From Ceratodon purpureus (Eukaryota; Streptophyta; Bryopsida; Pseudoditrichales; Ditrichaceae): a DNA stretch of 64,000 bases. The position numbers and the translations under genes are program-made. This document shows positions 1 to 41,019 of the stretch, one piece after another. Numbering within the stretch: position 1 is the stretch's first letter; each line of letters starts with the position of its first letter. The notes beneath the pieces are model-generated. The model was not told where the DNA came from and made no database searches. It saw only the letters and a list, made by a program, of their open reading frames with translations. The DNA is taken from contig CM026426.1 of the NCBI GenBank assembly GCA_014871385.1, positions 26,402,453-26,466,452 on the forward strand, given 5' to 3'.

Positions 1-32
1 CACTCGTAAAGTACGAACTTCAACGCCAAATG

Positions 33-59
33 CAGTTTAGGTCGCCTCGACCTAAACTG
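33..59. repeat. Class-2 palindrome (GGTCG type) near element left end
   Basis: Stems TTTAGGTCG and CGACCTAAA surround a three-base centre, with flanking CAG and CTG extending the symmetry. The E2 equivalent is at 37067-37087. A degenerate hybrid palindrome lies at about 196-216, in the 3' flank of the DUF7869 gene. Confidence 0.85.
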
Positions 60-333
60 CGGTCTATAATGTGGTACACATGATAAATAAGGAATGGACT
101 GAAACACTTAAGTAGTGTTACCTCCAACAAAATATATGTAATTTGCTAGTGTACAAAACATAAATACGCTAGAACTAATACGCTATAACTGATCAGGTCG
201 ACTCGAGCTAAACATCTACCTTTGTCTTGAAAACAGAAGGGACGAACGGTATTCAGTTCAGTCGTCTTCAAACGAATATAAGGGATCTGACTCAATTCAG
301 AACTTCAAGACCACCAACTTCAAAGCTACATGT

Positions 334-1146
334 TTATTCAGAATCCGGAGACACAAATCTCTCCAAGGAGGCCTTTATAATGTCCAGTTGTTTCAGTGGG
401 ATCTTCAGCGTTGGATCCTTGCCAACGCCCCGGTCGTTGACATTTTTTTTAACTTTGGATTTCCAAGCTGTTATGACTGCATCAGTACTCTGCCACGACT
501 CGGGTACATCCTTCTCAACTGTCCAACGAAGTCTCCCATCCACATCCTAGCCGGTATAGAATTTCAAAACATTTTCATCTCGGGAAATTGGGCGGTAGAA
601 CTGTACTTGGAGCGTGTTTGGGAGGTCAGGGTTCGAATTAGGGTCAGTCAAGGCCCGCGCAAGCCAAAAAGGACGATCGTCTTCATCGCAGGGTCGTAAT
701 GCTAAGAAGTACCTTGCAAAAAGGTCTCGCGCAACACGGAACGACGGTCTTGGGCGATCTCGTTTGTGACCAACAAAGTGATCATCCTCTGCGAACTCCT
801 CGCGCAAAGTTCCATCTTCCTGAAACTCGTCTTCGACGGAGTGAGCGAGCCGCGTGGATGGCCAGAAACCATGCTCCAAGGCGGGGACAACATCAAAGGG
901 AATGGAAAGAGCCTGTTTAACATCGTTCCAATAGTATGAGAGTGGCTCATAGATTCTTCTGGACTCGACTGAATCCGAAGATAGCCTCTCCCAATGATCT
1001 ACAAAACCCGACAAGCCCTTAATCACATCAGGCAGGTGCCGCATCTCGCGAGGCGCCACGGCACCAGGAACACCACGGGGCCATAAAGATCGACCTTCTG
1101 AATCCTCCTTCCACAACTTGATGCCACAACCATCTCCTTTTGGCAA
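334..1146 (-). pseudogene. In-frame downstream extension of the DUF7869 protein, one TAG
   Basis: Directly after TGA 1147-1149 the same frame stays open for about 270 codons, reading LPKGDGCGIKLWKEDSEG and ending LERFVSPDSE. The region holding RPFWLARALTDPNSN, then VQFYRPISRDEN and a Trp-rich stretch resembles the C-terminal part seen in related proteins. A TAG at 547-549 sits where E2 has TGG (Trp). The TGA is shared by E1 and E2, so it is either the genuine end, a readthrough site, or a lesion older than the duplication. A third, more decayed copy is at 39690-40435. I cannot tell whether this was ever a separate protein. Confidence 0.65.
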
Positions 1147-3171
1147 TCAGTCGTCGTCGTGACAGAAGATTTTATACTTCATGACTGGGCATCCTGAAGA
1201 ATCTACATAGAATTTGAACTGATGAGCTTTAGTGTGGCCCATTAACGTATCGTCGCCATCAAGCATCCACTCCGCGATGAATTTCTTGAAATCTGGGACC
1301 TCCTGAATAAGATGCGGAATTGTTGGTACTGCTTCATGTTTCATGAAGGACTTCATGAGGAGAGGTATTGTGGGGAAGTCCTCCCTCCGCAAAGCCATGC
1401 TCCATCGCCCGAAAAGGGCATCAATATCGTCATGAGTATGGCCGACCAGCATGAAATTCACGTACACTTCGCGAAACACCCGCTTCGCGACTAATAGGGA
1501 CCAGAATGAAAATACAAACCTATTCTTGTTATCACTGACAGCGTTATCCATTTGGACGTTAAGAATGGGAGGCAACGGTTTAGCAGCAACAGGAACCTCA
1601 GGAGGAGGGCCAAGAGGATCCAAACACATCTCTGAACCATGCAAAAGCGCGGCATACAATGGGTGGGAAGGATTCTCTTGAAAGAGTTCCCTAGAGGTGG
1701 ATTGAGGGGGTGACTCAAGGTCCCGAAGGAGCTTCGCAAACAATCCAACCGTGTAATTAGCGTCGTGTGAGTAAATGTCAAGGCCATAATGGGCGTAACG
1801 TTGGTCCACATGCCCATGAGCAAGCATTCCCGTGACAGCGAGAGGAAGCTTCATGAGACCATCTAAGTGTTTGACCTTGTGGGATAAGGCCGGCGACGCC
1901 GTCTTCGAGTGGTCCATCTTGTCATGCATAATAGTAAGAACTTCATGCGGAGTAGCCTTCAACCTGAATCGATTTAGGTAGTACAAGTCCCTATGCGCCA
2001 TTGCAGAGTCATTGTGCAGCCTCATTTTCTTAGACCACAACAGGGACGCCTGAGATCCTGTAACCGTCAACTTCTTCTGGGACTGGAACTCATCACATTT
2101 TGAGCAACGAGCGAAGTTGTCTCCTGCCCGTTTGGCGTAATATTCTGGATAGCTAAGCCTCCTGATCTTGCTCAAGTTAGAAGCGGGCATAGGAGGCAAT
2201 CCGCAGTCCGCTAAATGCTCATCGAGGATGGGAATCTGTTCCTTCCATTTGAAACTCGAAGGCAGAACTTTAGCTACAACTGTCTCCCCTGAAGGCAGAA
2301 CACGACTCTTGTGGGGCATGTGGTTGGCATGCCTGTCCAGGATGGCCCCTAGGACGGCAGTTGCTACCACTGTGTGATTTCGAGGTTTACGTAAACCAGT
2401 ATTACCGTGAAATTGAGCCTCGAAACCAGCAGCAGCATACTGGGCATTTCTATAGAATGTACTGGAGCTCACTCCCATAATCTTCATCCAGGCGAAGGGG
2501 CAAACATCTATGCCCTCCAGAGTCACCACACTCTTCCCCGCTGAATTCTTGTGGATCTGTCTATGCACGTCGAGCTTTATGTGATTACGGAACTGCACTG
2601 TGGTCTTGTCGTACATACGCGACCGTAGACTAGAGATTTTATCTCTGGGATAGTGTTGGACGCATAGGTGAGCGCAGCACGTGTTTGCCGCTACAGAGTT
2701 GATAGATGGCTGGGTCATCAGAAACTCAGCGTGACGTGATATAGGAGGGGGGGTATTCCTAGAGGAGTTATCATACGATCGGGTACGTTCTCCCAGGGAT
2801 CGGTTACGCTCCGCAACCCAACGGTTATACACATCACGTTGACTATGGTGCTCTAGGCTAACTCCATCCAGATAGACGTGGCTGATAGGCCACGTTTTGA
2901 AGGAGTACCTCCAATCATCCTCTGACTCTTCTTCGACCAAAGAACTTGATACCTGGACGACGACAACGGAATCACCAAGGGGACCAACCGTGTCAGATAC
3001 CAAGCTGGACCGTGGGTTCCGGATCAAACCTTCTGCTAACGGGATATTGTCGTCACTATATATTGTTACAGTCTTGTTCTGCCATTGTCTTGAGGGTAAA
3101 ACCACGAAGTCTGGAAGGTCTGGGTTTACGGGCACTTCAACGGGAACCTCGTCATCTGAGACATAGTCCAT
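1147..3171 (-). CDS. DUF7869-like transposase candidate, intact 674-codon frame (E1 copy)
   Basis: This is the longest intact element protein, starting MDYVSDDE just inside an exon whose acceptor is TTTCAG|GTACA. The N-terminal third is acidic. The middle has a Cys pair (CSKCDEFQ). The C-terminal part has the DUF7869 signature: NVQMDNAVSDNKNR, then VGHTHDDIDALFGRW, with conserved Asp, Asn and His. I know this combination from uncharacterised multi-copy proteins of algae, mosses, lycophytes and oomycetes, and a DDE/RNase H-like transposase role is plausible but unproven. The frame ends in TGA at 1147-1149, and an in-frame extension follows directly (see 334-1146). It is divergent from gene A, about 7.6 kb away. 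The E2 copy at 33953 is broken in several places. Confidence 0.75.
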   Translation of the reverse strand: MDYVSDDEVPVEVPVNPDLPDFVVLPSRQWQNKTVTIYSDDNIPLAEGLIRNPRSSLVSDTVGPLGDSVVVVQVSSSLVEEESEDDWRYSFKTWPISHVYLDGVSLEHHSQRDVYNRWVAERNRSLGERTRSYDNSSRNTPPPISRHAEFLMTQPSINSVAANTCCAHLCVQHYPRDKISSLRSRMYDKTTVQFRNHIKLDVHRQIHKNSAGKSVVTLEGIDVCPFAWMKIMGVSSSTFYRNAQYAAAGFEAQFHGNTGLRKPRNHTVVATAVLGAILDRHANHMPHKSRVLPSGETVVAKVLPSSFKWKEQIPILDEHLADCGLPPMPASNLSKIRRLSYPEYYAKRAGDNFARCSKCDEFQSQKKLTVTGSQASLLWSKKMRLHNDSAMAHRDLYYLNRFRLKATPHEVLTIMHDKMDHSKTASPALSHKVKHLDGLMKLPLAVTGMLAHGHVDQRYAHYGLDIYSHDANYTVGLFAKLLRDLESPPQSTSRELFQENPSHPLYAALLHGSEMCLDPLGPPPEVPVAAKPLPPILNVQMDNAVSDNKNRFVFSFWSLLVAKRVFREVYVNFMLVGHTHDDIDALFGRWSMALRREDFPTIPLLMKSFMKHEAVPTIPHLIQEVPDFKKFIAEWMLDGDDTLMGHTKAHQFKFYVDSSGCPVMKYKIFCHDDD

Positions 3172-3270
3172 TGTACCTGAAATGCAACAGACCCATTTCT
3201 GTTAGAACGTATTATACTCCTTAAAGAGAATTAATCTCTAAAATTGTAGGGAAACATATCCCAGGCGCAG

Positions 3271-3624
3271 TTTAGCTCGAGTCGAGCTAAACTGATCCTG
3301 GACAATGGGAATCATGAGTTTAGCTCGAGTCGAGCTAAGCTGCTGCTGCCCTTTCGATGCAGAAGTTTAGCTCGACTCGAGCTAAACTCGTGTTGCCCTT
3401 TGGATACAGATGTTTAGCTCGACTCGAGCTAAACTACCGCACCCATAGGGCGCCAGAAGTTTAGCTCGAGTCGAGCTAAACTTCTTCCGCCCTTTGGGTG
3501 CGGTAGTTTAGCTCGAGTCGAGCTAAACTTATGCTGCCCTTTGGGTGCTTGAGTTTAGCTCGAGTCGAGCTAAACTCATGATGCTCTTTGGATGCAGCAG
3601 TTTAGCTCGAGTCGAGCTAAACTG
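3271..3624. repeat. 47-bp minisatellite with eight class-1 palindromes
   Basis: Eight palindromes start at 3271, 3319, 3366, 3413, 3460, 3507, 3554 and 3601, with a 47-bp period (one 48). Each unit is TTTAGCTCGA, one base, TCGAGCTAAA, plus a spacer based on TGCTGCCCTTTGGATGCAG. The array lies upstream of the DUF7869 start, in what looks like the leader intron (acceptor just before the ATG). E2 has only two units here (33789 and 33837). The palindrome is better kept than the spacer. Confidence 0.95.
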
Positions 3625-10751: not shown

Positions 10752-13700
10752 ATGGCAGAGAGGTAACAAACCAAATGCCAATTTTGTATAAATCTCCATA
10801 TAGAACGTCAACAATTTAGCTCGAGTCGAGCTAAACTGCAGCTTCCAAAAAAAAGTACAAAAACTGAATAAAAACAATAATTTTGACACATTTAAACGAG
10901 AAAAATTCTGTTATACAGCCTTGCAGTTTAGCTCCACTCGAGCTAAACTGTAAGGAGCTTTGCAGTTTAGCTCGAGTCGAGCTAAACTGAAGAGCTCTCA
11001 CAGTACTGAACTTACAGCTAATCTGTAAGTTGTGAACTGTGGGAGCTCTGCAGTTTAGCTCGACTCGAGCTAAACTGCGGAGCACCTTACAGTTTAGCTC
11101 GAGTCGAGCTAAACTAGAGGTGTGACTCCCCTAATTTCCTAGAAGAGAAACCTACAGTTTAGCTCGAGTCGAGCTAAACTGTAAGTTCTCCCTTCTAAAG
11201 TCCTGGCAGTTTAGCTCGAGCCGAGCTAAACTGCAAGGGGATCATGGTGGGCGTCGAGCAATTTAGCTCGAGTCGAGCTAAATTTCTCAACTGCCTCAAT
11301 GATCCCCTTGCAGTTTAGCTCGACTCGAGCTAAACTGCAAGGCTCCCATGCTGAAAGCCCAAGCAGTTTAGCTCGACTCGAGCTAAACTGCTGGGATGCT
11401 ATCGGTTACTTGATTAATAGTATCAACATTTAGCTCGAATCGAGCTAAATGGCTTTGAATTTGTCTAATGGTAAATGTGTCCTCCTTGCAGTGAGGAGAG
11501 AGCAAGGGTAACTGAGGCGCTACGACATTTCTTCAAGCCTGTTCCTATATCTGATTCAGATGACGATGACGGGGATGACTCAAGCACATACGAGCCGTGG
11601 ACCTTCAAAGACCCCACGAAGGTCAAACATTGGACTCTGCGATGGGTTGCATACACCCCATATCTTACCTTCGCAACCATTTTCAAGGGAGAAGTCGATG
11701 ATCCCGAGGTCATCGATATGGATACAAAGGTCACCGAGTGTGACAATAAGGGAAAAGACCAAATCAAGATCCTCTGCTCATCTACCGGGGCTAATCCATA
11801 CCTCTTCTCCATAGTAGTAGACGTAGCGGAGAACCTCTTCGACCCCATTTCCTTAATGGAAAGTTTGTCCAATTCACCTTTCGAGGAGATAGTGTCCACG
11901 ATGAGACAAGAAATACTGGACAAGAAATGGGCAACAAAGGATGGACGAACTCTCGGGGCGAAATCCCTAGCGTGGAAACTGAGGAATGTTGTCTGCACCC
12001 TTGCTCTCCGCGCAACGGAGGCAAAGGTGAAGCAGAACCTCGGAAAATCTCAAGTTGACGTCTCTGGAGTGACAGCAACCGGGAGTCAAATGGGGAGCCA
12101 ACAGACAGGACGCAGTAGGGGGAGAGCAATAGTTCCATCCCAAAGCCGAGGCGCTTCTGCAACTCCCACGCCCCACTCACCATTGAAGAAGAAAGGCCTC
12201 GAGAAGAAAACTGACAAGCCAAAGCCCAAGAAGGACTTGCTCTTATCTGCAGAGGACTTGGCAACAAGTTTGAACTCTGTTCTCGGGGAACTCCCCAAGG
12301 TGAACAAGGCTGGAGAGATCCTGGACTTCGACAACGCCAATCGCATTTACCAGAATTTCTTTTCTGATTGCCAGGACGAGTTCGTCTTCAAAACGAATGG
12401 GCAACCAAAGAAGTTCAGTGTGGACGTGACGCGGTGCAAGCCCGCACTGGCCGCATGGACTATCCGTGCATATGAGAAGCGGGGCATGGAGGAGATGAAG
12501 AATTACCTGGTCAACATGCCTGATAGGGGTCAAAAGCAAACCCTGTGTCTTATGCCAGACACAAAGGCACGACCTCAACAAGAATCGGATCTGGAAGGCT
12601 GTGAATTCCACATCATCAACGGGCAACACAGCGTGGCGGCGTCCAAATCTCTCATCGAAGATAACGCCAGTGAGGAGTTGTTGAGGGACTTCAGGAGGTG
12701 GGATGCGTACATCGTCTGGACGAAGGATCATGATAAGCTGCGAAAAATCTCAGCATTCTATAATCGGGTGAACCATCTCGCACCCTTCAAGCCAACTTGG
12801 GCGAGCAATATACTTGCCGCTAGAAAAGTGTGGGAGAAGTATGGTAAGCCCCAAAAGAAAAATGCTGCCGCTGGTGCTGCGGACCGCAGGAGTACAGGTC
12901 CGAAAAGTAATCCAGCGTCGAAGACATACGAGGTAAGTTCACTGATTCATTAGCATTAGCAGTTTAGCTGGACTCGAGCTAAACTTCCTGCAGTTTAGCT
13001 CGAGTCGAGCTAAATATTGATAGTCTTTTTCGTTTTCAATATTCTGGTATACCTCGATCAATTTAGCTCGAGTCGAGCTAAACAGTAGTTCCGAGACAGC
13101 ATCATCTAAGGTTTCTTCTTGTGCGTATGCAGAACTTTTTGAATGCTATCAGGGAGCGCTTCGCTATGATCGATGTGGCGAAGCATCAAGCCATGGTGGC
13201 GAAGAAGGGAGGGAAGAACACTATCTCCCTAACAAACGAGCTGTTTATCATCACATCCAGTGATGAAACATGGGACCTGTGGAAGGAGGTGATCGCGTCT
13301 GCGGCATGTGGTGGACTCATTGATCCCGACAGCGAACCTCCGCATAAGAAATTCTATGAGAGGAAGGGGTTCGTTCCGGACAAGGATGGGACGCTTCCGA
13401 GGGAGTTCTTCAAATGGCTCGGGAACTTGACAGAGGCAGATCACCAGAAGATGTGTAAGCACATCCTGCATAAGTCTGGGCCAAGTCGGAAGTACACATA
13501 TCCGAAGGTGACCATCAAGCAGAATACGAGTGTATTGGAGGACTGCTACTCGGTCAAGGAGTGGGCGGAGCGGAGAAAACGTAAGGCTGTAGCTCAAGCG
13601 GAGTTCAACAACATTAATCCAACGCTCCATTTATTTAAGCGAGACGGCCTTGATGTACCCGCTTGGAAGCAGTTCAAGAAGACTTACTTTGTCTCTAAGG

Positions 13701-15578
13701 AGTCGAAGCACGTTCTGCTTGATTGGGGTATTCCAGAATCGTACTGGACTAACTCCAGAGCTACACAGTTCCGCAACAAGTCGGCCAAGGATCTCTCCCC
13801 ATATGCGGTTGAGTTCTTTAAAACCTTCTTGAAGGTTCGACATGCGTTTAAGTGTCCTTCAGCTGAGATGTGGTTCCTCCCATTCATCAGGGAGCCTCGA
13901 CTCGCCTTCGAATCTTGGCCCTCCGATATATGGAGGTTGGCGGGCGGCGCACTCACATTCGGAATCATCGACTTCCGGTTCCTCCCAACCTACAAGACGA
14001 GGCAGAACTACACTTTGGAGAACCCCTTCTTCATGGAGTTCTTCAATATGATCGAAGAGTATGGGCAGCCCCAGTTTAACGATGTTCGGCACTGGCTTCT
14101 CATTTGCGGAGACGATGAGGACTTCGCCCAGGTGCTCACTTGGGTGGAGCGAAACACCTTGAGTGGTCGCAGAAGAGTCCATTCAGAGTATTTACCCGCT
14201 CCTAACGAGCGACTCGGCGGACACCCCCCAAAGAGCAGAATCGCGATGGAACCCGTCAAACTCCTGTTTCTCATTGATGATAATTTACTTGAGAACGAAG
14301 TGTCAACGCCAGAACCTCTGAGCGAGTACAGAACTGCGGACCACCCACTGTACAAGGACAACAGGAAGTTTAACGAAAGGAGGTACGCAATGTATCCATA
14401 CGAGTTAAGGATGGAGTTCTACCTGCAGGTCCTCGACACTTTCTGCAGTACTGGGGTGGCGGTTTATCAGCTCTATGCGGGAACGAAGTCCCTCATAGCC
14501 GCCGCGGTAAGTTTCCACACTTTAGCTCGAGTCGAGTTGAATCGTTCCACTGTTTTTATCACATGCACCATGTATGCACACACTTCCACACTTTAGCTCG
14601 AGTCGAGCTAAACCGTGTTTACCTTGTCTTTGTTTTCTTCAGATGCTCTCGATCTCGTCTTTCGTGGTCGCGGATGATAGTGACTCTCCTCATATGGTCG
14701 AAGCTCAGGCACTTGGATTAACTCTGGACCCAACCGATTTTAGTGTCGACGCTTATTTTGTCGATAAGGAACGGTTTCCGGAATACGGCAGAGCCGTGCG
14801 GAAAGGGAAAGGCAGAGCTGCGGAGGAGGGTGACGATGTTGATCTGGAGGAGGATGCCCCTACCGAGGAACAGACCCCCTCCTCCAGTGCTGCGGACATT
14901 AGCAATGAGAGCGATGCTCCGCCTTCTGATCCGGTAAGTCAGACAGCATCTGAGGGTGGAGTGGGGAGAAGACTCGAGTTTCCAGACGTCGACATTACAC
15001 GTACGGACGATGAGAGACCGGGTTCTGCACCAGAGCTGGGATCCGGAAGTGGGAGAAAGACTGGCGCTGCGCGAAGTACTGGAAAGCCGGCTCAGAAGAA
15101 AAAGAAGGTCAATCCTCCAGCTCGGCAAGCCTCCCCGTTGGGGAAAGCCGCTCCCGATCCGGATATTCAAGCTAATCTCGCAGAATTGCAGGCATCCAAT
15201 GCGAGGAATAAAGCATTACAAGATCGGATGGCACAGCAGGAAAAGGATATAGAGAAGACCGTGCAGGCGGCACTGCAGAATGTTCTGCAAGGCATGAGTA
15301 GTGCCACTCTTTTCCCGAATGCGGGTCCAGTTCTGCCCAATGTCCAGCCAATAGGTAGTGCCCTGCCTACTTCGCGAGTACTTGAGATTTTGGGCTCCCC
15401 TACTGGTGGTGCAAAATTGCCAGAGTTGGATCCGAGTCCCGCAGCAGTGCCTGAGCCAAGCCATCATTCCACCGACCAGGTCATGCGTGACCGTAGTCCC
15501 AGTCCTCCCCGTTCTCCCTCCCACAATCAGACTCAGGGAGATGCTCCCGAGACATCTTCAGGTCCCTCCCAAACTTAG
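10752..15578 (+). CDS. Gene A: ParB-like motif plus degenerate methyltransferase-like protein, five exons
   Basis: Coding exons are 10752-10762, 11492-12932, 13133-14506 and 14643-15578, after a leader exon ending at 9973. Phases agree at every junction and predict about 1253 residues, starting MAESEERARV. An acidic run DSDDDDGDDSS lies near residue 25, and a basic Ser-rich linker near 200-260. CEFHIINGQHSVAASK (near residue 380) resembles the DGQHR/ParB-type motif. TGVAVYQLYAGTKSLIAAA (near 925-942) resembles motif I of N4/N6 DNA methyltransferases, preceded by a YPYEL element, but the usual FxGxG is altered and no DPPY motif was found. The last exon is acidic, Pro/Ser-rich, with a short coiled coil. 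The similarities are weak and judged by eye; function is inference. E2 keeps only the start. An alternative splice at 15561/15786 could join gene B. Confidence 0.7.
10814..11449. repeat. Eleven class-1 palindromes inside gene A intron 2
   Basis: Intron 10763-11491 contains eleven palindromes (first at 10814, last at 11429-11449). Most are perfect TTTAGCTCGA/TCGAGCTAAA pairs with a single central C or G. Neighbouring spacers are inverted copies of each other: GCAAGGGGATCAT at about 11231 against ATGATCCCCTTGC at about 11297, and CTGTAAGGAGCTTTGC near 10950 against GCGGAGCACCTTACAG near 11077. The E2 intron also holds eleven. Confidence 0.95.
12963..13082. repeat. Three class-1 palindromes inside gene A intron 3
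   Basis: Palindromes start at 12963, 12993 and 13062, in the 200-bp intron between donor GAG|GTAAGTTC and acceptor GTATGCAG|AACTTT. The flanking exons contain none. Confidence 0.9.
14521..14612. repeat. Two class-1 palindromes inside gene A intron 4
   Basis: One degenerate copy (14521, right half mutated) and one perfect copy (14592-14612) in the 136-bp intron 14507-14642. They are flanked by TTCCACAC repeats, so the second may be a duplication of the first. Confidence 0.9.
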
Positions 15579-15681: not shown

Positions 15682-15702
15682 TTTAGCTCGACCCGAGCTA
15701 AA
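15682..15702. repeat. Class-1 palindrome between genes A and B
   Basis: TTTAGCTCGA and CGAGCTAAA halves surround a CC centre. It lies upstream of an acceptor-like CCCAG at 15781-15785, so it is either in the last intron of a joined A-B transcript or in a leader intron of gene B. Confidence 0.8.
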
Positions 15703-15838: not shown

Positions 15839-16952
15839 ATGGCCCAAACTGCGGATGAGACTGGACGCACAAATATGGATTTAGATGTCACGGCCCAGTG
15901 CGCTCTGACCTTGCCAACGTGCGTAGAGGTCTTTCCTAGCGATCAACCTCAGAATTCATTAGGGTCGATGGGTCCTGTGGAGGATCGGGATGTTGTAGAA
16001 AGCCAAGCCGAGGATGCTCAGGTATTTCATCTATCATTATATCTCGTTGCACTATTTCCTTCGAGAATGACTTGCCTTGCAACTGTCCTTATTGTATCAT
16101 TCGTATAACCCCGTCCTAGTATAATATAGTAATGTCCATCTGTCATCGGTATTTCCTCTCCAGGTGCGCGAGGCATCTGGATGTGACGTAAGTTCTAGTG
16201 AAGAATTGAGTCCTGTCCCGACAAGACCTCAGAGTGGTTGGTTGAACGTTGTCCTCGACCTTAATGAAATACTCTGCTCCAGTACTCCTAATTGGCCTGG
16301 AAAATCATTCGTTAGCCATGACCTTAGCATCCACTCAGCGTCCAAGCCAGCAGTCGTGGGCCCCAAGCTTGTTTGTGTCAGGCCCAATTGCGCTGATTTC
16401 CTTCGTCGGTTGTCAGCATTCGCAACCATAACCGTCTGGAGTTCGATGAAGACTTCGACGACAAAAATGATCTGCGACTATCTGTTCGGTCCGATTCGTC
16501 CTGTCTATCCGCTCAGAATTCTAGGTCAAGAGGGCTGTCAGAGAGTTCCTATGGGCGTAGATTTTCGAGGTCGTCCGGTATATATGAAGGAACCCGGAAC
16601 TCAGAAGGACATCTTCCTTAAGCCGATGTCCGATGGTCTCTTTCGTAAATTTGGTGGCATATATTCCGAGGCCAACACCATTTTTATCGACGACAGCCCG
16701 ATCAAGCACTGTCAGAATAATTCTTAGAATGTCCTTCTACTCTCCACTTGGAACAACCAGAATCCCGATGCCGCAGATGATCGTTTTTTGTTGTCGAAAC
16801 TTTTGCCATATCTTGTAGACCTACACCACTTTGTGGGGACAATCGCTAGATTCAGGGCCGAGCGTCCGATCGGGAAGAAAATGTATTATGATGACCGTTC
16901 TACCTGTGAACAATACGCTAAGATTAATGAGGCAATTAGTCGTAGACCATAA
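15839..16952 (+). pseudogene. Gene B: FCP1/NIF-type HAD phosphatase-like, one in-frame TAG
   Basis: Exons 15839-16021 and 16164-16952, phase 0, intron 142 bp. The N-terminal 95 residues are acidic and unrecognised. The HAD domain shows motif 1 VVLDLNEIL, then RPNCADFLRRL, motif 2 ITVWSSM, and motif 3 FIDDSPIKHC, followed by DLHHFVGTIARFRAE and EQYAKINEAI. This matches the plant FCP1/SCP-like hydrolases that often act on phosphoproteins. The second motif-1 Asp is Asn (DLN), as in plant relatives of unknown activity. A TAG at 16725-16727 breaks the frame just after motif 3, while homology continues to TAA at 16950. No second copy is in the window. It follows gene A by 260 bp on the same strand. 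Confidence 0.7.
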
Positions 16953-17182: not shown

Positions 17183-18012
17183 GATAATGCATGTCGAGCC
17201 TCTGTGGATTCTTTGAATTATGCTTATGGCTGCGGGCCCTCTCTACGTAGCAGAGGGCTTCTGTTGCAATCCGTTGCAACAGCGCAGTCCACGATGGACT
17301 ATTCAACTATGGCTGTCGACGAAGGGGTTGTGGACAGCCCGGTTAACCTGTCCGTTCCCAAGACCCTGAAATCCCCTTCTCCTATGTGGCCACGGACCGT
17401 ACTGCATGTTCTATCTCCGAAACGACAGAGTTCTACCCCTACGAAGAGTGCTCTTTATAACAATGTGGTGGACATGCCGTCACCACCACCGGCAAAGGTT
17501 GGTTTTCATTCCTCAGTATTCACTCTTCATTCCTTTCTGATGTTTCATTCTTGTAAGTTTCTTTCATGATGTTTCATTCTGATGTCCTTATTTTAGCTCG
17601 AGGCCACCTAAAATGATTGATCTTCTTATACTCTCGTGTAGGTCTAGTTGTAGCTTATGTAGGCCTCCTCGTTCAAGGTCCGTTCGACCTTTACAATTGC
17701 ACTCAGCAGTTTAGGTCGATTCGACCTAAACCGAAATCTCTTCCCAATGCTAATTTATCCCCTTTGCAGATGCCGAGGCTGCGATCAACAACTACTGGAT
17801 CCAGGGCAAGGAAGTCCGCCGACTCCCACTCTAAACCATCCAGTACCCGTCGCCACTCTCTGCCAGAGTCAAGCATCGGTGACAGGCGTAGGCAGAAGTT
17901 GCAACGTCTTCTTGATAGTCCAATGATGCAGGTTGAGGGAATGTCGTGGACACGTCAGCGCCAACGGGAATTCGTCAAGTCAAGAATTGAGGCTTACGGA
18001 GGGACTCCATAA
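17183..18012 (+). CDS. Gene C: basic Ser/Pro-rich C-terminal module, two exons
   Basis: Exons 17183-17497 (acceptor TATTGCAG, donor CAAAG|GTTGG) and 17770-18012, both phase 0. The product has MDYSTMAVDEGVVDSPVN, PKTLKSPSPMWPR, VLSPKRQSS, a basic Ser/Thr stretch RLRSTTTGSRARKS, and ends REFVKSRIEAYGGTP. Repeated Ser-Pro sites suggest a phosphorylated nuclear protein, but no domain is recognised. I found no start codon of its own, so these are probably terminal exons of gene B or of a longer transcript. Possible polyadenylation signals AATGTAAT and GAATAAAA lie at about 18090-18113. E3 carries a copy (38249-39045 and beyond) with a CAG-to-TAG stop, so this copy is the better preserved. Confidence 0.6.
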
Positions 18013-18443
18013 CCATATAGAGGATACTATGTACTGTATAGCAATGGCGCAGACAATATAGACGATTATAAGACTCCTCTGTGTTATTTCAATGTAATTA
18101 TGTTTTGAATAAAACGATTGATCTGTTTGTCATATTTTCTCGTCTGCTATTTTTGCCTCATTGTCTTGCACACTTTTTGTGTTATTCAAGTTTCCGAATG
18201 TAATTTATGTAATTTATGGACATTGCCTTTTATTGAAACCTTGGTTTAGAAAAGGTAACGGATAGTTACTACTAATATTACAGGGGACGTGGTATATTCT
18301 TTTTCCTTGTTTATATTGCGTTTAGGTGTGATCGACCTAAATGACTTATTCATAATCTCTATTTAAACATGTTTTTAATGAATCAATGAACATTACTAAG
18401 TTTTCTCCTGTATGTTCGTGCATTTAGGTCCACTCGACCTAAA
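17710..18443. repeat. Class-2 palindromes in gene C intron and element right end
   Basis: A perfect class-2 copy (TTTAGGTCGA, TT, CGACCTAAA) is at 17710-17730 in the gene C intron, and a hybrid (TTTAGCTCGAGG, CCACCTAAA) at about 17593. Subterminal copies with imperfect centres are at 18321-18341 and 18423-18443, between the gene C stop and the element end. Their E3 equivalents are at 38794, 39405 and 39507. Confidence 0.85.
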
Positions 18444-18499: not shown

Positions 18500-18596
18500 G
18501 CAAGATTGAAGTAAATGGGAGATGACGAATGTCGCCATTTCTCTGCACTCTGATTTCCCAAAATCAAGAATATCTCCCAAAATAACGAATATGGTG
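18500..18596. repeat. Right terminus of E1
   Basis: The end reads GATTTCCCAAAATC, AAGAATATCTCCCAAAATA, then ACGAATATGGTG. The same sequence ends E3 (39681) and, after a different subterminal stretch, E2 (37758) and E4 (41019). Beyond it the four sequences differ, except that TTA follows in E1, E2 and E4 (the CACTA superfamily makes 3-bp duplications). The matching left end of E1 is outside the window, so no duplication can be checked. Confidence 0.7.
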
Positions 18597-18685
18597 TTAT
18601 TACTGTAAGTACTTCAATGCAGCACTTAGTGTTTACAATTAATTAGTCGCAAGATTAATGTCACTTAGTATTTAGAAAAACTCTT

Positions 18686-25136: not shown

Positions 25137-25176
<40 letters not shown>

Positions 25177-26539: not shown

Positions 26540-28620
26540 TAGCGCCTCAAGTACCCTTGCTTTCTCCTCACTGCAAGGAGGAGGCGTTTAACATTAGACA
26601 AATTTGAAGCCATTTAGCTCGATTTGAGCTAAATGGTGGTTTAACTACAAAATATAACACATGACATTCCAGCAGTTTAGCTCGACTCGAGCTAAACTGC
26701 TTGGTGGCTTTACTAGGAGCTCTGCAGTTTAGCTCGAGTCGAGCTAAACTGCACAACTCCCAGTAAAGCCCCCAAACAGTTTAGCTCAAGTCGAGCTAAA
26801 CTGCTTGGGCTTCAAAAAGGAGCACTCTCAGTTTAGCTCGAGTCGAGCTAAATTGTAGATGGATCTCCCGGGTAGGTTTTGGAAGTTACATCTACAGTTT
26901 AGCTCGACTCGAGCTAAACTTTGAGTTCTCCCTGCTAAATCTCAGCAGTTTAGCTCGAGTCGAGCTAAACTGTAGCCAAAAGGTACTTTGTACTCTGCAG
27001 TTTAGCTCGATTCGAGCTAAACTGTGAGTGGTCAAAATAGCCTTTGGCTACAATTTAGCTTGAGTCGAGCTAAACTGTAGCAATTAATGAAATAATTTTA
27101 AAGTACTTAATGTTTTTCAATCTTCTTTTATACATGGTGGATGTGAGTTTAGCTCGAGTCGAGCAAAACTGTCAAGCGATAGTTGTCTTCCGCAAGCAGT
27201 TTAGCTCGACTCGAGCTTAACTGTTCTTGATTTTTGAGAGATTGATTATGCAATTTGCAGAAATACTTAGTACCTCTCGGCCATTTTTACTCAAATCCCT
27301 CCGTTGTGAATCTGCTGAAACGTGTTCCGCCTGCAAAAAAGAAGGCATTTTGAATGGTCAGAATGGTTTCACATCCAATCATACTCGTTCCGGAATAAGC
27401 GGAAGACAATCGACTAAAGTGCTTCCAATAAGCCCAATTCTCACATACTAAGGCGACTGTAACTATAAATACAAAAATAAACCTATGTTGAAACTACAAC
27501 ACAATGCAAATGACATTGATATGTAATACAAAATACAAGGAATATGCTATTGCAACCATCTTATGATACACACATGCACTCACACAAGCCTGTTGAGAAC
27601 CACACATTAAATCACAAACATACACACACATACAGAAAACGAACAGAATTCAGAATTTGAAACCCAACAGACACAAACAGAAGACGAACACAATTCAGTA
27701 TTCGAACACAAACAGAGACACACAAAAGTCGAACACAATTCAGAATTCGAACACAAACAAAATTCAAAATTCAAACACACACAGAATACGAAAACAAGAC
27801 AGAATTCTACCACAGACAGACACACACATAACACATAAAGAGTACAAACAGAAACAGACACACACAATTCAGAATTCAGTACGGAAATTACAGGATGCTA
27901 ATCCTAAACTAGCGAGAACATGCCAAAGAATTATAATTGAAACAAAAAAAAAACAAAAAAACTCAGTTGACAAGACCCTAAATTGCGAAATTCAATGGAA
28001 TTGAACTGAAAGAAAAGGGAAACCAGTAACGCGATCAATTACGCACCTCAAAGTTAGCGCCGCAAGAATGTTTTCCACGCCTCCCGAAACCCCAATCCAA
28101 ATCGCTCGCCTCCACGGAGCACCAAAGAAGTTCGCACAAGAACGAAAGAACCAAAATACACCTAAACCTTACAGACCGAGGAAGAACCCAGCACAGGAAA
28201 ACCTAACACAGATCCGTGGAACAACTCAAAGAAGCACAAGCTGAAGCGCAAAGCACTTTGAACTCCCTCCGCGCATTAACATTTCAAACCATCACCCTAA
28301 AACCTAAACCGTAGAGACCAACACTACTTCAAACAAAGAAGTCACACACTCTGGAGGAAGGAAATGGACCAGAGAAAGCCCCGAAAACTCGCGTGAAACA
28401 AACTGTACTGCACAGTCTCTCACGGAATTCATTCCCGCCACCACCAAAAAACAAGCGCAGACACAGACACACACAGAGAAAAGGAGAAAACAGTGAAACA
28501 CCTTCGTGGATGAGGTCGCGGTGGGGATCAGTTCCTACCCCTCGCACGGATCCGTGATCGCGCCGCCATATCGCGTGGCCCCATCACCGCAGGGTTCAAT
28601 GCCCCGTCCCTGCGGGTTCA
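26540..28620 (-). pseudogene. Truncated gene A start in E2 (leader, start exon, first bases of exon 3)
   Basis: The leader lies at about 28600-28050, with TGTGTGTGTCTGTG on the minus strand. The start exon has ATG at 27284 (ATG GCC GAG AG) and its donor at 27273; the acceptor is GCAG at 26571-26574, and exon 3 starts at 26570. Phases match E1, giving MAESEEKARVLEALE before homology stops at 26540. Differences from E1 in these codons are partly silent (GCA/GCC) or conservative. Over 1200 codons of gene A are missing. Promoter and first splice sites look intact, so transcription into 26.5 kb and beyond is possible. Confidence 0.75.
26613..27220. repeat. Eleven class-1 palindromes inside truncated gene A intron of E2
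   Basis: Eleven copies between acceptor (26571) and donor (27273), first at 26613 and last at 27200-27220. Several have single mutations in a half-site. Spacers again pair as inverted copies: GGTGGCTTTACTAGGAGCTC (about 26703) against AACTCCCAGTAAAGCCCCC (about 26755). One spacer, GTTCTCCCTGCTAAATCTCAG (about 26926), keeps the same plus-strand orientation as its E1 relative at about 11180, although the arms are inverted. Confidence 0.95.
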
Positions 28621-33788: not shown

Positions 33789-33857
33789 TTTAGCTCGACT
33801 CGAGCTAAATTGCTGCTGCCCATAGTCCAGGCACAGTTTAGCTCAAGTAGAGCTAAA
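33789..33857. repeat. Two class-1 palindromes upstream of the E2 DUF7869 gene
   Basis: Starts at 33789 and 33837, 48 bp apart. The second has two mutations (CAAGTAGAG centre). E1 has eight units at the same place. Confidence 0.9.
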
Positions 33858-33952
33858 CTGCGCCTGGGTTAAATTCTCAAACTTAACAATGAATTAGCTT
33901 CAAGGAGTATAATATGTTCTCATAAAATTGGATCTGTTGCATTTCAGGTACA

Positions 33953-36789
33953 ATGGATTACGTCTCAGATGACGAGGTACCGGTTGAAGCGCCCTTAAAC
34001 CCAGACCTTCCAGACTTCGTGGTTGTACCCTCAAAATTATGCCAGAACAAGACTGTAACAATTTACAGTGATGACAATATCCCATTAGCAGAGGGTTTGA
34101 TCCGGAACCCACGGTCCAGCTTGGTATCTGACACCGTTGGACCCCTTGGTGATTCCATTGTCGTCGTCCAGGTATCACGTTCGTTACTCGAAGAAGAGTC
34201 AGAGGATGATTGGAGGTACTCCTTCAAAACGTGGCCTATCAGCCACGTCAATCTGGATGGAGTTAGCCTAGAGCACCATAGTCAACGTGATGTATATAAC
34301 CGTTGGGTTGCGGAGCGTAACCGATACTTGGGAGATCGTACCCGATCGTATGATAACTCCTCTAAGAATACCCCCCTACCTATATCACGTCACGCTGAGT
34401 TTCTGATGACCCAGCCATGAATCAACTCTGTAGCGGCAAACACGTGTTGCGCTCACCTATGCGTCCAACACTATCCCAGAGATAAAATCTCTAGTCTACG
34501 GTCGCGTATGTACGACAAGACCACAGTGCAGTTCCGTAACCACATAAAACTGGATGTGCATAGACAGATTCACAAGAATTCAGTGGGGAGGAGTGTGGTG
34601 ACTCTGGAGGGCATAGATGTTTGCCCCTTCGCCTGGATGAAGATTATGGGAGTGAGCTCCAGTACATTCTATAGAAATGCCCAGGATGCTGCTGCTGGTT
34701 TCGAGGCTCAATTTCACGGTAATACTGGTTTACGTAAACCTCGAAATCACACAGTGGTAGCAACTGCCGTCCTAGGGGCCATCCTGGACAGGCATGCCAA
34801 CCACATGCCCCACAAGAGTCGTGTTCTGCCTTCAGGGGAGACAGTTGTAGCTAAAGTTCTGCCTTCCAGTTTCAAATGGAAGGAACAGATTCCAATCCTC
34901 GATGAACATCTAGCGGACTGTGGATTGCCTCATATGTCCGCTTCTAACTTGAGCAAGATCAGGAGGCTTAGCTATCCAGAATATTACGCCAAACGGGCAG
35001 GAGACAACTTCGCTCGTTGCTCAAAATGTGATGAGTTCCAGTCGCAGAAGAAGTTGACGTTAAAAGGATCTCAGGCGTCCTTGTTATGGTCTAAGAAAAT
35101 GAGGTTGCACAATGACTCTGCAATGGCGCATAGGGACTTGTACTACCTAAATCAATTCAGGTCGAAGGCTACTCTTCATGAAGTTCTTACAATTACGCAT
35201 GACAAGAGGGACCACTCCAAGACAGCGTCACCGGCCTTATCCCACAAGGTCAAACACTTAGACGGTCTCATGAAGCTTCATCTCGCTGTCACGGGAATGC
35301 TTGCTCATGGGCATGTGGACCAGCGTTACGCCCATTATGGCCTTGACATTTACTCACACAGCGCTAATTACACGGTTGGATCGTTTGCGAAGCTCCTTCG
35401 GGATCTTGAGTCACCCCCTCAATCCACCTCTAGGGAACTCTTTCAAGAGAATCCTTCCCACCCATTGTATGCCGCGCTTTTGCATGGTTCAGAGATGTGT
35501 TTGGATCCTCTTGGCCCTCCTCCTGAGGTTCCTGTTGCTGCTAAACCCTTGCCTCCCATTCTTAACGTCCAAATGGATAACGCTGTCAGTGATAACAAGA
35601 ATAGGTTTGTATTTTCATTATGGTCCCTATTAGTCGCGAAGCGGGTGTTTCGCGAAGTGTACGTGAATTTCATGCTGGTCGGCCATACTCATGATGATAT
35701 TGATGCCCTTTTCGGGCGATGAAGCATGGCTTTGCGGAGGAAGGACTTCCCCACAATACCTCTCCTCATGAAGTCCTTCATGAAAAATGAAGTTGTACTA
35801 ACAATTCCTCATCTCATTCAGAGGTCCCAGATTTCAAGAAATTCATCGCGGAGTGGATGCCTGATGGCAACGATACATTAATGGGTCACACTAAAGCTCA
35901 TCAGTTCAAATTCTATGTAGATTCTTCAGGATGCCCAGTCATGAAGTATAAAATCTTCTGTCACGACGACGACTGATTGCCAAAAGGAGATGGTTGTGGC
36001 ATCAAGTTGTGGAAGGAGGATTCAGAAGGTCGTTCTTTATGGCCCTGTGGTGTTCCTGGTGCTGTGGCGCCTCGCGAGATGCGGCACCTGCCTGATGTGA
36101 TTAAGGGCTTGTCGGGTTTTGTAGATCATTGGGAGAGGCTATCTTCGGATTCAGTCCAGTCCAGAAGAATCTATGAGCCACTCTCATACTATTAGAACGA
36201 TGTTAAAGAGGCTCTTTCCATCCCCTTTGATGCAGTCCCCACCTTGGAGCATGGTTTCTGGCCATCCACTCGGCTCGCTCATTCCGTCGAAGACGAGTTT
36301 CAGGAAGATGGAACTTTGCGCGAGGAATTCGCAGAGGATGATCACTTTGTTGGTCACAAACGAGATCGCCCAGGACCGTCATTCCGTGTTGCGCGAGACC
36401 TTTTTGCAGGGTACTTCTTAGCATTACGACCCTGCGATGAAGACAATCGTCCTTTTTGGCTTGCGAGGGCCTTGACTGACCCTAATTCGAACCCTGACCT
36501 CCCGAAAACGATCCAAGTAGTGTTCTACCGTCCAATTTCCCGAGATGAAAATGTTTGGAAATTCTATACCGGCTGGGATGTGGATGGGAGACTTCGTTGG
36601 ACAGTTGAGAAGGATGTACCCGAGTCGTGGCAGAGTACTGATGCAGTCATAACAGCTTGGAAATCCAAAGTTAAAAAAAATGTCAACGACCGAGGGCATG
36701 GCAAGGATCCAACGCTGAAGATTCCACTCAAACAGCTGGACATTATAAAGGCCTCCTTGGAGAGATTTGTTTCTCCGGATGCTGAATAA
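33953..36789 (+). pseudogene. DUF7869-like transposase candidate, E2 copy, multiply broken
   Basis: Same protein as 334-3171. Breaks private to E2 are TGA 34418-34420 (Ser codon in E1), TGA 35720-35722 (TGG in E1, within FGRW), a 1-bp deletion at about 35821 (CAGGAGGTC to CAGAGGTC), and TAG 36193-36195 (TGG in E1). The TGA at 35974-35976 is shared with E1. The Trp codon lost at 547-549 in E1 is intact here. The conserved blocks NVQMDNAVSDNKNR and VGHTHDDIDALFGR remain readable. Not expected to make a full-length product. Confidence 0.85.
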
Positions 36790-37066
36790 ACATGTAGCTT
36801 TCAAGTTCGTAGTCTTGAAGTTCTGAATTTAGTCAAATCACTTATATTCGTTTGAAGACGACTGAACTGAATACCGTTCGTCCCTTCTGTTTTCAAGACA
36901 AAGGTAGATGTTTAGCTCGAGTCGACCTGATCAGTTATAGCGTATTAGTTCTAGCGTATTTATGTTTTGTACACTAGCAAATTACATATATTTTGTTGGA
37001 GGTAACACTACTTAAGTGTTTCAGTCCATTTCTTATTTATCATGTGTACCACATTATAGGCAGCAG

Positions 37067-37241
37067 TTTAGGTCGAGGCGACCTAAACTACATTTGGCGT
37101 TGAAGTTCGTACTTTATGAGTGCAGAATACCAACAGGTCACCTATAGTTCTTCTTGTAGATTTTTACTTAGTATCCTAAACCATTGATTCTATATCATAT
37201 GTACTAGCACATACCAGCCGTTTAGGTCGAGGCGACCTAAA
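37067..37241. repeat. Class-2 palindromes at E2 subterminal region
   Basis: TTTAGGTCG, AGG, CGACCTAAA at 37067-37087 and 37221-37241, each followed by a GCGTTGAAGTTC motif, so a unit of about 155 bp is duplicated. A third, more diverged unit is at about 40569 in E4. Hybrid or half copies lie at about 36904, 37535 and 37690. Confidence 0.85.
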
Positions 37242-37716
37242 CGACATCTAGCGTTGAAGTTCCTAGTTTGGATTTCTGAAGTAGAGCCGATAACATACAT
37301 TTGTTGGCATGGACAATACTGAAGTCCGTATGTTCTTTGATTGCATATCATACTGTGGAAACTGTAGGCAGCTATGTTGGTCGAACAACTTGATTGTTTG
37401 TACAGGTCTGAAAGAGCCTGTCACAGATTCAACATTTAAGGAGTGTCGACCTAAATTGTATTTCCACACATATATATAATATAAGTTTGCCCAGCATATC
37501 TGTTGTGTCCATTTCTTGTTATTTGCATGATGTTCATTTAGGGTGGTTCGACCTACCTTGTACTTTTTCATATATTTCTAGTAAACCATCTAGTTCTTTC
37601 ATTTCCCATTACTACTGTGTGATCATCTCCCAAATTAATTGAAATTGCTTATAAGCTTTTCCTTGCCAAGTATGAGACCATTATGCCCATTTTAGCTCGA
37701 CCTGACCTAATGCATT

Positions 37717-37758
37717 ATTTTGGGAGATGATAAATCTCCCAAAATACCGAATATGGTG
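37717..37758. repeat. E2 terminus with perfect hairpin
   Basis: Stem ATTTTGGGAGAT, loop GATAA, stem ATCTCCCAAAAT (37717-37745), followed by ACCGAATATGGTG. E4 has a mutated version at 40977-41019. The right ends (E1, E3) share the outer half only. Confidence 0.8.
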
Positions 37759-38069
37759 TTATTGTGATTTTTTATCAAAAAAAAACTTCACAATTTGGTG
37801 AATTTCTCTTCACCAGTACACTTCTCCGGTGGACTTGTCCTATAAGCGTCTCCAATAGGTGTTTAGACTACAACCGGTCAAGACTCCTTTTGAAATATTT
37901 TATAACCATTAATTCTTCTCCGGCACATCCACCATTTGCCTCATATAACCATGTCTTGGCCAAGCATTCTTGACCAACCGGAAGGCCTTCTCCACCGTAG
38001 TGTAAACCGGCCCTTAGGCATGTCTTGGGTTCTCTAGTTTGCTATAGGACATATTTGAACTGGCGCTAA

Positions 38070-39681
38070 GCTTTCAGTATACTCTACATCTTAACTAACT
38101 AGTTAATCATTGTATCAAGACTACTGGTTTTGTAATACAAAGTACATTTTTCTTTTTAATCTATAATGTCCCTTGCGTCGAACCTGAAACCCTAAACCAT
38201 TGCTGAATTATTGGGGATATATGTTTCGATCTGCTTTATGTATTGCAGGAGAATGCATGTCCAGCCTCAGTGGATTCTTTGAATAATGCTTATGGCTGCG
38301 GGCCTTCTCTGCATAGCACAGGGCTTCTCTTGCAATCGGTTGCAACAGCGCAGTCCAGGATGGACTATTCAACTATGGCTGTCGATGAAGGAGTTGTGGA
38401 CAGCCCGGTTAATCTCTCCATTCCTAAGACCCTGAAATCCCCTTCTCCTATGTGGCCACGGATCGTACTGCAAGTTTTATCTCCGAAACAACAGAGTTCT
38501 ACCGCTACAAAGCGTGCTCTTTATAACAATGTTGAGGACATGCCTTCACCTCCACCGGCAAAGGTTAGTTTTCATTCTTGACTATTAGCTTTTCATTCCT
38601 TTCTGATGTTTCGTTCATGTAAGTGGCTAAGTGATGATAGCTGCTCGCATCTCTTCTTGCCTCCTATATGTCCTTTTTTTAGCTCGAGGCCACCTAAAAT
38701 GATTGATCTTTTTCTACTTTCATCTATGTCTGTGCTAGCTTATGTAGGCTTCTTCGTTCAAGGTCCATTCGACCTAAACAGTTGCACTGAGCAGTTTAGG
38801 TCGATTCGACCTAAACCAAAATCCCTTCTCAATGCTAATTTATCCCCCTCGTACTTGCCTTGCAGATACGGAGGCTACGATCAACAACTACAGGATCTGG
38901 GGCAACGAAGTCCCACCCTAAACCATCTAGTTCCCGTCGCCACTCTTTGCCTGAGACAAGCATTGGTGACAGATGTAGAGAGAAGTTGCAACGTCTTCTT
39001 GATAGTCCAATGATGCAGGTGGAGGGAATGTCGTGGACACGTTAGGGTCAAAGGGAATTCGTCAAGTCAAGAATTGAGGCTTACGGGGGGACTCCATAAC
39101 TATATAGTGGATAGTATGTACTGTATAGCAATGGCGCAGGCAATGAAAAGACGATTATAAGAATCGTCTATGTTATTTCAATGTAATTATGTTTCAAATA
39201 AAACGATTGATCTGTTTGTCAAATTTTCTCGTCTGCCATTTATGCCTCAGTGTCATGCACTGTTTTCGTGTTCTACAAAATTCCAAATGTATTTTATGTG
39301 ATTGTGCATTGCGTTTTAGATGTACCATGTTTAGAAAGGTAACAAATAGTTACTACTATGGATACAAACACGTGGTTTACTCTTCTTTTTCATTTTTTAT
39401 TGCGTTTAGGTGTGGTCGACCTAAATGACATAATCATCATCCTTCCTTAAACATGTTCTTAACGAATCATTGTAAATTATTAAGTTCTTTCATGTATGTT
39501 CGTGCATTTAGGTCCACTCAACCTACAGGACATAGTCCTCATTCTTCATTTAACATGTTTTTAGTGAATTAATATTGATTTTACGTGAGGTCTAAGTAAA
39601 TGGGAAGGCATTAATGTGGCCATTTCTCTACACGCTGATTTTCCAAATTCAAGAATATCTCCCAAAATAACAAATATGGTG
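38070..39681 (+). mobile_element. E3: right-end fragment with gene C copy
   Basis: Direct-orientation copy of about 17010-18596. It starts within intron-like sequence (left edge approximate) and ends at AACAAATATGGTG (39681), immediately joined to E4. The 310 bp between E2 and E3 (37759-38069) show no recognisable feature. Confidence 0.75.
38249..39100 (+). pseudogene. Gene C copy in E3, stop codon gained
   Basis: Exons 38249-38563 and 38866 onwards, with the same splice sites and phases as 17183-18012. CAG in the E1 copy is TAG at 39043-39045, after which the frame continues to the normal end (GGTP, TAA at about 39098). A short deletion removes residues in the basic stretch. The intron keeps the class-2 palindrome at 38794. 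Confidence 0.8.
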
Positions 39682-41019
39682 TTTATGGCCTTGTGATGTT
39701 CCTGGTGTCGTGGCGCCTCGCGAGATGCGGCACCTACCTGATGTGGTTAAAGGGTTGTCGAATTTCGTAGATCACTAGGAGAAGCTATCTTTTGATACAG
39801 TCTAGTCGAGAATAATCTATGAGCCCCTCTCATACTACTAGAACAATGTTAAAGAGGCTCTTGCCATCCCTTTTAATGCACTTCCCACTTTCCAGCACGG
39901 CTTTTGGCCGTCTACTTAGCTCGCCCATTCCGTTGAAGACGAGTCTCAGGGGGATGGAACTTTGGGCGAAGAGTACGCAGAAGATGATCACTTTGTTAGT
40001 CACAAGCCGAATCGCCCAAGACCTTTATTCCGTGTTGCCCCAGACCTTTTTGCAAGATACTTCTTACCATTATGACCCTGCACTGAAGACGTTCGTTATC
40101 TTTTGGCTTGCGTAGGCTTTGACTGACCCTAATCCAAATTTGGACCTTCCAAATACGTCCAAGTAGAGTTCTACCGTCTAATTTCTTGAGAGGAAGATGT
40201 TTTGAAATTTTATACCGGCTAGAATGTGGATGGGAGACTTCATTGGGTAGTAGAGAAGGATGTGCCCGAATTGTGGCACAGTACTGATGTTGTCCTAACA
40301 GCTTGGAAATCAAAAGTGAAGAAAGATGTCACAAAGTGGGGACGCAGAAAGGATCCAACGTTGAAGATACCACAGAAACAAGTGGACATTATAAAGGCTT
40401 CTTTGGAGAGATTTGTTTCTCCGGAATGTGAATAGGCATTCAACATTGAAGTTGATAGTGTAGGAGTTCTAAATTCTAGCAGATCACTTATATTTGTTGG
40501 GAGGCAACTACACTGATTTTCTTTCATCCATTGATTCTATATCATCTATACCAGACCATAGGCAGCAGTTTAGCTCGAGGCGACCTAAGCGATATCTAGC
40601 GTTGAAGTTGGTAGTGTAGGAGTTTTAAATTCTAGTTGATTACATATATTTGTTGGGAGGGAACTATACTTAATTACTTATGTCTTTTGATTCTATATCA
40701 TCTATACCAGACAATAGGCAACAGTGTTGGTCGAGGCAACCAGAATGGTTCTTCAGGTCTGATACGGCGAGTGACATATTGAACATTTAGGTTGGTTCGC
40801 CCTAAATTGTATTTTCTCATATATATTTGATATAAATTTGCTAAAATTATCCGGTGCTTTCATTTCCCGTTATTATTGCATGGTCATCTTCCAATTTAAT
40901 GGAAATTCCTATTTAGCTATTTCTTGCCAAGTGTGAGACTCTTGTGCCCATTTTACCTCGACAGTAGCAAATGCATTATTTTGGGAGATGATGAATCTTC
41001 CAAAATATCAAATATGGTA
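39682..41019 (+). mobile_element. E4: left-end fragment with third copy of the DUF7869 extension
   Basis: Begins inside the coding extension (TTTATGGCC matches about 36036) and runs through the 3' flank and a class-2 hybrid palindrome (about 40566) to a terminus resembling E2's, ending AATATGGTA at 41019. It abuts E3 directly, so two element ends of different type are joined. Confidence 0.7.
39690..40435 (+). pseudogene. Degenerate third copy of the DUF7869 C-terminal extension
   Basis: Homologous to 36037-36789, with several stops and small indels. The most readable part is 40226-40435 (MDGRLHWVVEKDVPELWHST to SLERFVSPECE). More diverged than the E1 and E2 copies are from each other. Confidence 0.8.

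Follow-up and report, generated by a model that had tools for sequence, protein, structure and literature searches.

The VANDAL elements of Arabidopsis are, to our knowledge, the best-described case of anti-silencing that is sequence-specific and follows an evolving motif code. They are Mutator-like transposons with target site duplications (TSDs) of 9 to 10 bp. Passages of the VANDAL/VANC literature place VANC21 sites in the introns of VANC and VANB and upstream of VANA, with turnover as tandem repeats (PMC5735166), give the VANC21 motif as the 9-bp non-palindromic YAGTATTAY and report that the motif spelling differs between related families (PMC5735166; PMC10398659). The locus compared with these elements here lies in a 64,000-nucleotide stretch of the genome of the moss Ceratodon purpureus (contig CM026426.1, positions 26,402,453 to 26,466,452; hereafter the window), in which a DNA transposon, E1, and its relatives carry arrays of a 21-bp palindrome around two of their genes, gene A and the gene for a DUF7869 protein, the putative transposase. 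By analogy, this is probably the layout of VANDAL/VANC anti-silencing in another kind of transposon, and we consider it reasonably likely that the palindromes of each family serve as its own DNA sites, recognised by a sequence-specific and probably dimeric protein that the element encodes, for which the gene A product is the most likely candidate.

The motif consists of two 10-bp half-sites around a 1-nucleotide centre. Matches to TTTAGCTCGAnTCGAGCTAAA at up to three mismatches number 49 in the window, between positions 36 and 40589, compared with none in each of 100 dinucleotide-shuffled versions; the roughly 48 copies counted in a first-pass annotation of this DNA are thereby confirmed, as is its statement that 41 to 64 kb is free of the motif, where no match was found at the same tolerance. 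Scoring each arm separately against either of two spellings, class 1 and class 2, gives 55 places in the window (up to three mismatches). The genome-wide scan that had been proposed returned 2293 exact class-1 sites across 362 Mb and 136 exact sites of the class-2 spelling TTTAGGTCGAnTCGACCTAAA, with zero sites for the reversed pattern in either case. A chance or simple-repeat origin of the palindromes is ruled out by the shuffles and the reversed-pattern controls.

E1 is a single DNA transposon of 19,237 bp which includes the segment formerly listed as a separate element, E3. The left copy of its 27-bp terminal inverted repeat, AACACCATATTCGTTATTTTGGGAGAT, begins 639 bp before the window (C6:26401814), while the right copy occupies 18572..18598 on the reverse strand and is followed by the 4-bp TSD ATTA; the element ends read AACACCATATTCG. 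A second copy, at C1:298018-316955, is flanked by the TSD TTGT. Genome-wide, the exact inverted repeat occurs 114 times in forward and 119 times in reverse orientation, and for 17 forward ends listed on contigs C1 to C5 a reverse end follows 17.5-19.0 kb on in nine cases, 26-38 kb on in five and not at all in three. Besides the DUF7869 protein, a 684-amino-acid open frame on the reverse strand (1147..3201; Pfam PF25273, E=3e-43), the element encodes a small open reading frame (ORF) at 5766, gene A and gene B, the latter with an open frame at 16125..16727 on the forward strand that contains an NIF/FCP1-like phosphatase domain (PF03031, E=2e-9). The small ORF contains a tandemly duplicated 252-bp unit at 5880-6349 (repeat PWFMAVERARGRGVEIPPWN).

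Upstream of the transposase, eight class-1 palindromes spaced 47-48 bp apart occupy 3271..3621 according to the motif matches, possibly within a leader intron, as read by eye from a candidate acceptor just before the ATG and a candidate donor near 3705. Gene A reads through in four coding exons on the forward strand, with the first, ATGGCAGAGAG, at 10752..10762 followed by intron 1 (10763..11491) with 11 class-1 palindromes, partly at a 52-bp period. Exon 2 (11492..12932), which encodes the conserved core INGQHS...WDA.IVW...FYN..NHL, is site-free, as are exon 3 (13133..14506) and exon 4 (14643..15578); introns 2 (12933..13132) and 3 (14507..14642) hold three and two class-1 palindromes, respectively. 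One further class-1 palindrome lies between gene A and gene B (15682..15702). In a second element of the window, E2, 11 class-1 sites are found in a remnant of gene A intron 1 (26613..27220) and two, at 33789 and 33837, upstream of the transposase (33789..33857), so that all the group sizes claimed in the annotation (8, 11 + 3 + 2, 1, 11 and 2) hold. Degenerate telomere-like (AGGGTTT)n tracts are present upstream of the transposase arrays at 4219-4306 in E1 and at 33102-33190 in E2.

The palindromes are conserved against the background of their introns. Across 32 sequences, diversity is 0.0147 in the motif arms (80 positions at 4 sites) versus 0.043 and 0.052 in intron spacers, which makes the arms about threefold less variable than the adjoining intron; a drift of the intron copies at the rate of their spacers, named beforehand as the result that would speak against function, was not observed. 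Between E1 and E2, with gaps left out, 194 of 200 arm positions of intron 1 are identical compared with 265 of 430 spacer positions (P=3e-25). Gene A itself is under purifying selection, with diversities of 0.016, 0.0095 and 0.040 at codon positions 1, 2 and 3 of exon 2, a ratio of non-synonymous to synonymous substitution rates (dN/dS) of about 0.20 and a stop codon in two of the 32 copies.

The geometry of the motif was counted in 297 kb of fetched sequence with overlaps removed. Convergent exact half-sites less than 32 bp apart are separated by one nucleotide in all 449 pairs, and only three of 983 exact half-sites face a partner with at least four mismatches. Because the arms are conserved relative to the spacers, the centre is fixed at one nucleotide, class and position are kept faithfully, and family-specific palindromes lie beside diverged gene A copies, a DNA site bound by a dimer appears to fit the motif, with the two halves predicted to lie about one helical turn apart. 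The annotation had offered two alternatives, a DNA site at which a protein of the element binds and a hairpin in the RNA; the conserved arms, the fixed centre and the family spellings give the first of these strong indirect support, and the hairpin would seem to fit the sequences less well. Folding of the transcript might affect splicing, stability or small-RNA processing, as most sites are in introns or in the stretch upstream of the transposase, two class-1 sites fold at -17.8 and -21.5 kcal/mol (z -5.9 and -7.9), one class-2 site at -13.3 (z -5.4), and class 2 differs from class 1 by a single symmetric change that keeps the pairing. However, among 249 distinct class-1 sites with at most two mismatches, class-2 sites being left out, the 47 changed core positions comprise 46 one-sided changes, one two-sided change and no compensated change; the centre invariably measures one nucleotide although a loop could vary in length; for two hybrid sites in the window the predicted fold is no better than that of shuffled sequences; and sites are found between genes and near the element ends as well. 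The bases flanking the core are also complementary above expectation, so that pairing past the core exceeds chance, but because the intron spacers occur in both orientations this extended complementarity has an explanation of its own, and flank covariation as a sign of hairpin selection was rejected. Cumulatively, RNA hairpins are a very improbable explanation for the palindromes.

Placement of the sites was followed in other copies by a search with gene A, which gave 87 scored matches of 714 candidates, the best 30 of which were fetched. Gene A exons 2 to 4 of E1 contain no match at up to three mismatches, and in the best 30 copies there are no sites in exon 2 or in the fetched part of exon 3, while 424 sites are located elsewhere in these loci, 422 of them class 1 on both arms. 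Intron 2 harbours 91, intron 1 harbours 212 where exon 1 was matched (19 of the 30 copies), and the remaining 121 are in the corresponding stretch before exon 2 of the copies without a matched exon 1. Between 6 and 14 sites per copy precede exon 2, mostly 52-54 bp apart (L037, in which the exon anchor was not located, is excluded from this spacing), and exon 2 of these copies shares at least 98.2% identity with the E1 exon. In E1 and three other long copies, class-2 sites are confined to the outer parts of the element, where they lie at the left end, in the last gene B intron and in the right flank. For E1 these are a class-2 site at 36 and a hybrid site at 192 in the left end (36..212), hybrid and class-2 sites in the last gene B intron, as delimited by eye (17592..17730), and two class-2 sites between gene B and the right inverted repeat (18321..18443). 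Hybrid sites share this outer placement, except that L024 and the C2 copy each have one in a gene A intron, and recur at matching places in the three other long copies, on the right side only in the C2 copy. Class 2 was also considered as a second array family, which was not supported; of its 136 exact genome sites, those placed (two in the window and three in other long copies) lie at the gene B intron.

Such arrays expand, contract and invert, which might suggest selfish mini-repeats that multiply and become homogenised by themselves, with no protein binding them. A case that such repeats would account for is found on contig C1, where among the exact class-1 sites listed 41 of 42 are inside two elements and the 42nd stands alone in the last intron of a host gene, FHIT-like by eye (L013 5516-5603), with a half-site beside it, flanking 12-bp duplications, a 32-bp match to E2 and no element within 10 kb around it. 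On the other hand, the 41 sites within elements, the preservation of the position classes across copies, the avoidance of gene A exons and the retention of each family's own spelling at matching places are not what free repeats would leave, and we regard this explanation, too, as highly unlikely.

Palindromes of other spellings were also found in related elements. A genome search with DUF7869 gave at least 150 scored matches of 1401 candidates, and in one copy each of four other families a 2.5-kb stretch was read that starts about 4.1 kb and ends 1.6 kb before the domain (1,757 of the 2,500 bases in L050 are N). Palindromes were read in all four stretches, namely TTAGCTCACnGTGAGCTAA in fam966 (16 at up to two mismatches), TTAGCTCAnnnTGAGCTAA in fam980 (5 at up to two), GTCGGCkGnCmGCCGAC in fam678 (9 at up to one) and GGGAGRCATATGYCTCCC in fam1072 (6 at up to three), with patterns that were written from the same sequences and have no match in 50 shuffles each. 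The fam966 and fam980 spellings are nearly alike; the loose fam980 pattern overlaps class 1 and fits 34 sites of the window too.

The fam966 palindrome TTTAGCTCACnGTGAGCTAAA has 446 exact genome sites with a 1-nucleotide centre, and their map shows an array that a 1.7-kb gap separates from a single site, at about 10 kb from the transposase. From these positions the gap was predicted to hold gene A, and it was found to encode a frame of 502 amino acids that shares 30% identity with exon 2 of gene A across 444 columns (153 bits). A search with this fam966 gene A gave 88 matches that form groups of 98-100%, 83-90%, 66-75%, 40-44% and 32-35% identity, plus fragments. The 11 closest copies have a DUF7869 match 11.0-13.3 kb away; for 12 copies of the 72-75% group it lies, among the matches listed, at 10.6-11.9 kb in seven and at 17-32 kb in three, with none near in two. 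The 40-44% group, F3, carries yet another palindrome, TATCCTCGAnTCGAGGATA (218 exact genome sites, 1-nucleotide centre), in introns 1 and 2 of gene A, the exon 2 of which is free of it and 44% identical to that of fam966 and 29% to that of E1. For F3 the prediction was made in the other direction, from a second array on contig C4, next to which a transposase was found that is 49% identical to that of E1 over 652 columns; among the matches listed, an incomplete set, none of nine F3 gene A copies has DUF7869 within 80 kb. Palindrome arrays accompanied by a related protein gene look like an element-encoded protein with evolving landing sites, as far as sequence comparison can tell.

Lone sites of F3 lead to short elements. 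The first eight listed on contigs C1 and C2 are all located in short elements of one family (L055-L062), seven of which measure 243-257 bp and have related inverted repeats, a clean 4-bp TSD and a palindrome close to their middle. These relatives of about 255 bp are non-autonomous elements; picked by their exact site, they are uninformative on site conservation. The presence of all eight sampled lone sites in such elements, seven of them with clean TSDs, together with the class-2 and hybrid sites toward both ends of the long elements, would agree with sites that serve transposition, at which the transposase or an accessory protein gathers internal and subterminal sites and shapes the transpososome, as for TNPA in En/Spm. 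The TNPA sites of En/Spm are subterminal and are not known from intron arrays, and the likeness consists of many copies of a short element-specific motif, some of them near both ends. However, the arrays here are densest at a distance of 3 to 11 kb from the ends, in gene A introns and before the transposase; the site of the short relatives is central rather than near both ends, and recombination between the outermost palindromes could have left this single site. A role in transposition is rather unlikely in our view. Membership in the En/Spm (CACTA) elements was rejected on the ends, AACACCATATTCG and not CACTA, and on a TSD of 4 bp and not 3 bp.

With respect to the VANDAL/VANC system, the resemblance of the locus extends to short family-specific motif arrays, which lie in accessory-gene introns, ahead of the transposase and in non-coding terminal sequence, to the rarity of the motif in coding DNA, to gain and loss of tandem repeats and to spelling changes between related families; family-specific non-coding arrays, turnover and changed spelling were all found, with the two in-frame sites of fam678 described below as the exception. 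Unlike VANDAL elements, the elements here encode DUF7869 and have 27-bp inverted repeats, a 4-bp TSD and a palindrome of 21 bp versus the 9-bp VANC21 motif, and gene A has no significant Pfam match. Membership in VANDAL was rejected, with no Mutator-like transposase among Pfam matches at E up to 0.1 and TSDs of 4 bp (ATTA in E1, TTGT at C1:298018) instead of 9 to 10 bp. Transposons of the Sola superfamily have 4-bp TSDs, like two elements and seven of eight short relatives here. The superfamily is named in PMC4455052. No paper with the term DUF7869 was found in the library searched, and among the records listed for moss transposons with intron palindromes, for ParB-like proteins with transposons and palindromic sites and for Sola there was no matching system.

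Gene A is an orphan gene. Its best match in the Pfam and NCBIfam libraries, PF08831 in part of exon 3 (E=0.0018), is below the cut-off; a comparison with the PDB gave nothing significant, with top hits judged to be chance, tblastn found no viral relatives, and a single-sequence fold with a predicted local distance difference test (pLDDT) score of 36 is unusable. The INGQHS segment, which we take, by eye, to recall ParB/DGQHR-type proteins, may resemble these by chance. Bacterial ParB and KorB proteins act with parS and operator sites, the KorB operator half-site being TTTAGC, and palindromic sites are a feature of the moss elements too. Gene A has no match to a ParB profile in the searches run, including exon 2 against Pfam, NCBIfam and the PDB for a ParB N-terminal domain with one or two sequences as query. 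For the transposase candidate, PF25273 DUF7869 is the sole Pfam domain at E up to 0.1, without a Mutator-like transposase, and PDB top hits were again judged chance.

That gene A probably encodes the binder of the palindromes is suggested by their joint occurrence in diverged families, and several observations weigh against this assignment or against the DNA site as such. In none of the Pfam and NCBIfam comparisons was a DNA-binding domain recognised in gene A above the cut-off, and the transposase or the gene B product could bind the palindromes instead. The two further DUF7869 families fam678 and fam1072 have dissimilar palindromes, and two of the nine fam678 palindromes are within an open frame (L048 1739 and 2096), each encoding VGCPPT, so that the strict placement outside exons claimed in the annotation stands for exon 2 of 30 gene A copies and exons 2 to 4 of E1 but does not extend to fam678. 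The lone exact site in the FHIT-like host intron is a second departure from placement in the elements. The copies used for the selection estimate are recent and the best protein matches, hence a favourable set, and the sameness of the motif could come partly from homogenisation within arrays. Finally, decay of CpG to TG/CA affects 6 of 256 positions in the arms, 16 of 127 in the spacers and 59 of 2336 in coding sequence; as decay in the arms is no lower than in coding sequence, purifying selection alone suffices to account for it.

On the reading of the palindromes as landing sites for an element-made protein, the gene A protein would recognise the arrays before the transposase and inside the gene A introns, together with the class-2 half-site spelling found toward both ends, and would serve every copy of its own family in trans. 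Judged by the layout, it would most likely keep the regulatory regions of the element active by countering host silencing, the part that VANC plays in VANDAL elements, with a function as an activator or as a TNPA-like transposition accessory the next best candidate. More tentatively, gene A with its INGQHS core and the palindromic arrays of DUF7869 transposons may have coevolved as a second, independent invention of sequence-specific anti-silencing in land plants, possibly with ParB-like loading and spreading that would keep whole elements and their one-site short relatives unsilenced. If true, finding this layout again in a different kind of transposon, with a protein of no recognised family, would suggest that transposons have evolved private site codes repeatedly; several protein-site pairs would be ready for tests of how specificity changes, and DUF7869, a domain without annotation, would gain a testable function for its partners.

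The DUF7869 frame has a peculiarity of its own. In E1 it is ended by a stop (1147-1149) which is followed in the same frame by an ORF on the reverse strand (547..1146), and a similar break with a similar same-frame C-terminal part is seen in F3 (L063 2173-2178). The frame of fam966 comprises 966 amino acids and is perhaps fused, which raises the question of readthrough versus two products.

The remaining features of the window belong mostly to further elements. In E2 the transposase is split over three open frames on the forward strand (33926..36789; ORFs and Pfam), followed by subterminal hybrid and class-2 sites (36911..37711) and a terminal inverted repeat with one mismatch on the reverse strand (37734..37760). 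An element fragment, E4, carries class-2 and hybrid sites (38678..39527), and the end of another element carries hybrid and class-2-like sites (40569..40806). Directly outside the right end of E1, a fragment of a SET-domain gene is located at 18945-19544.

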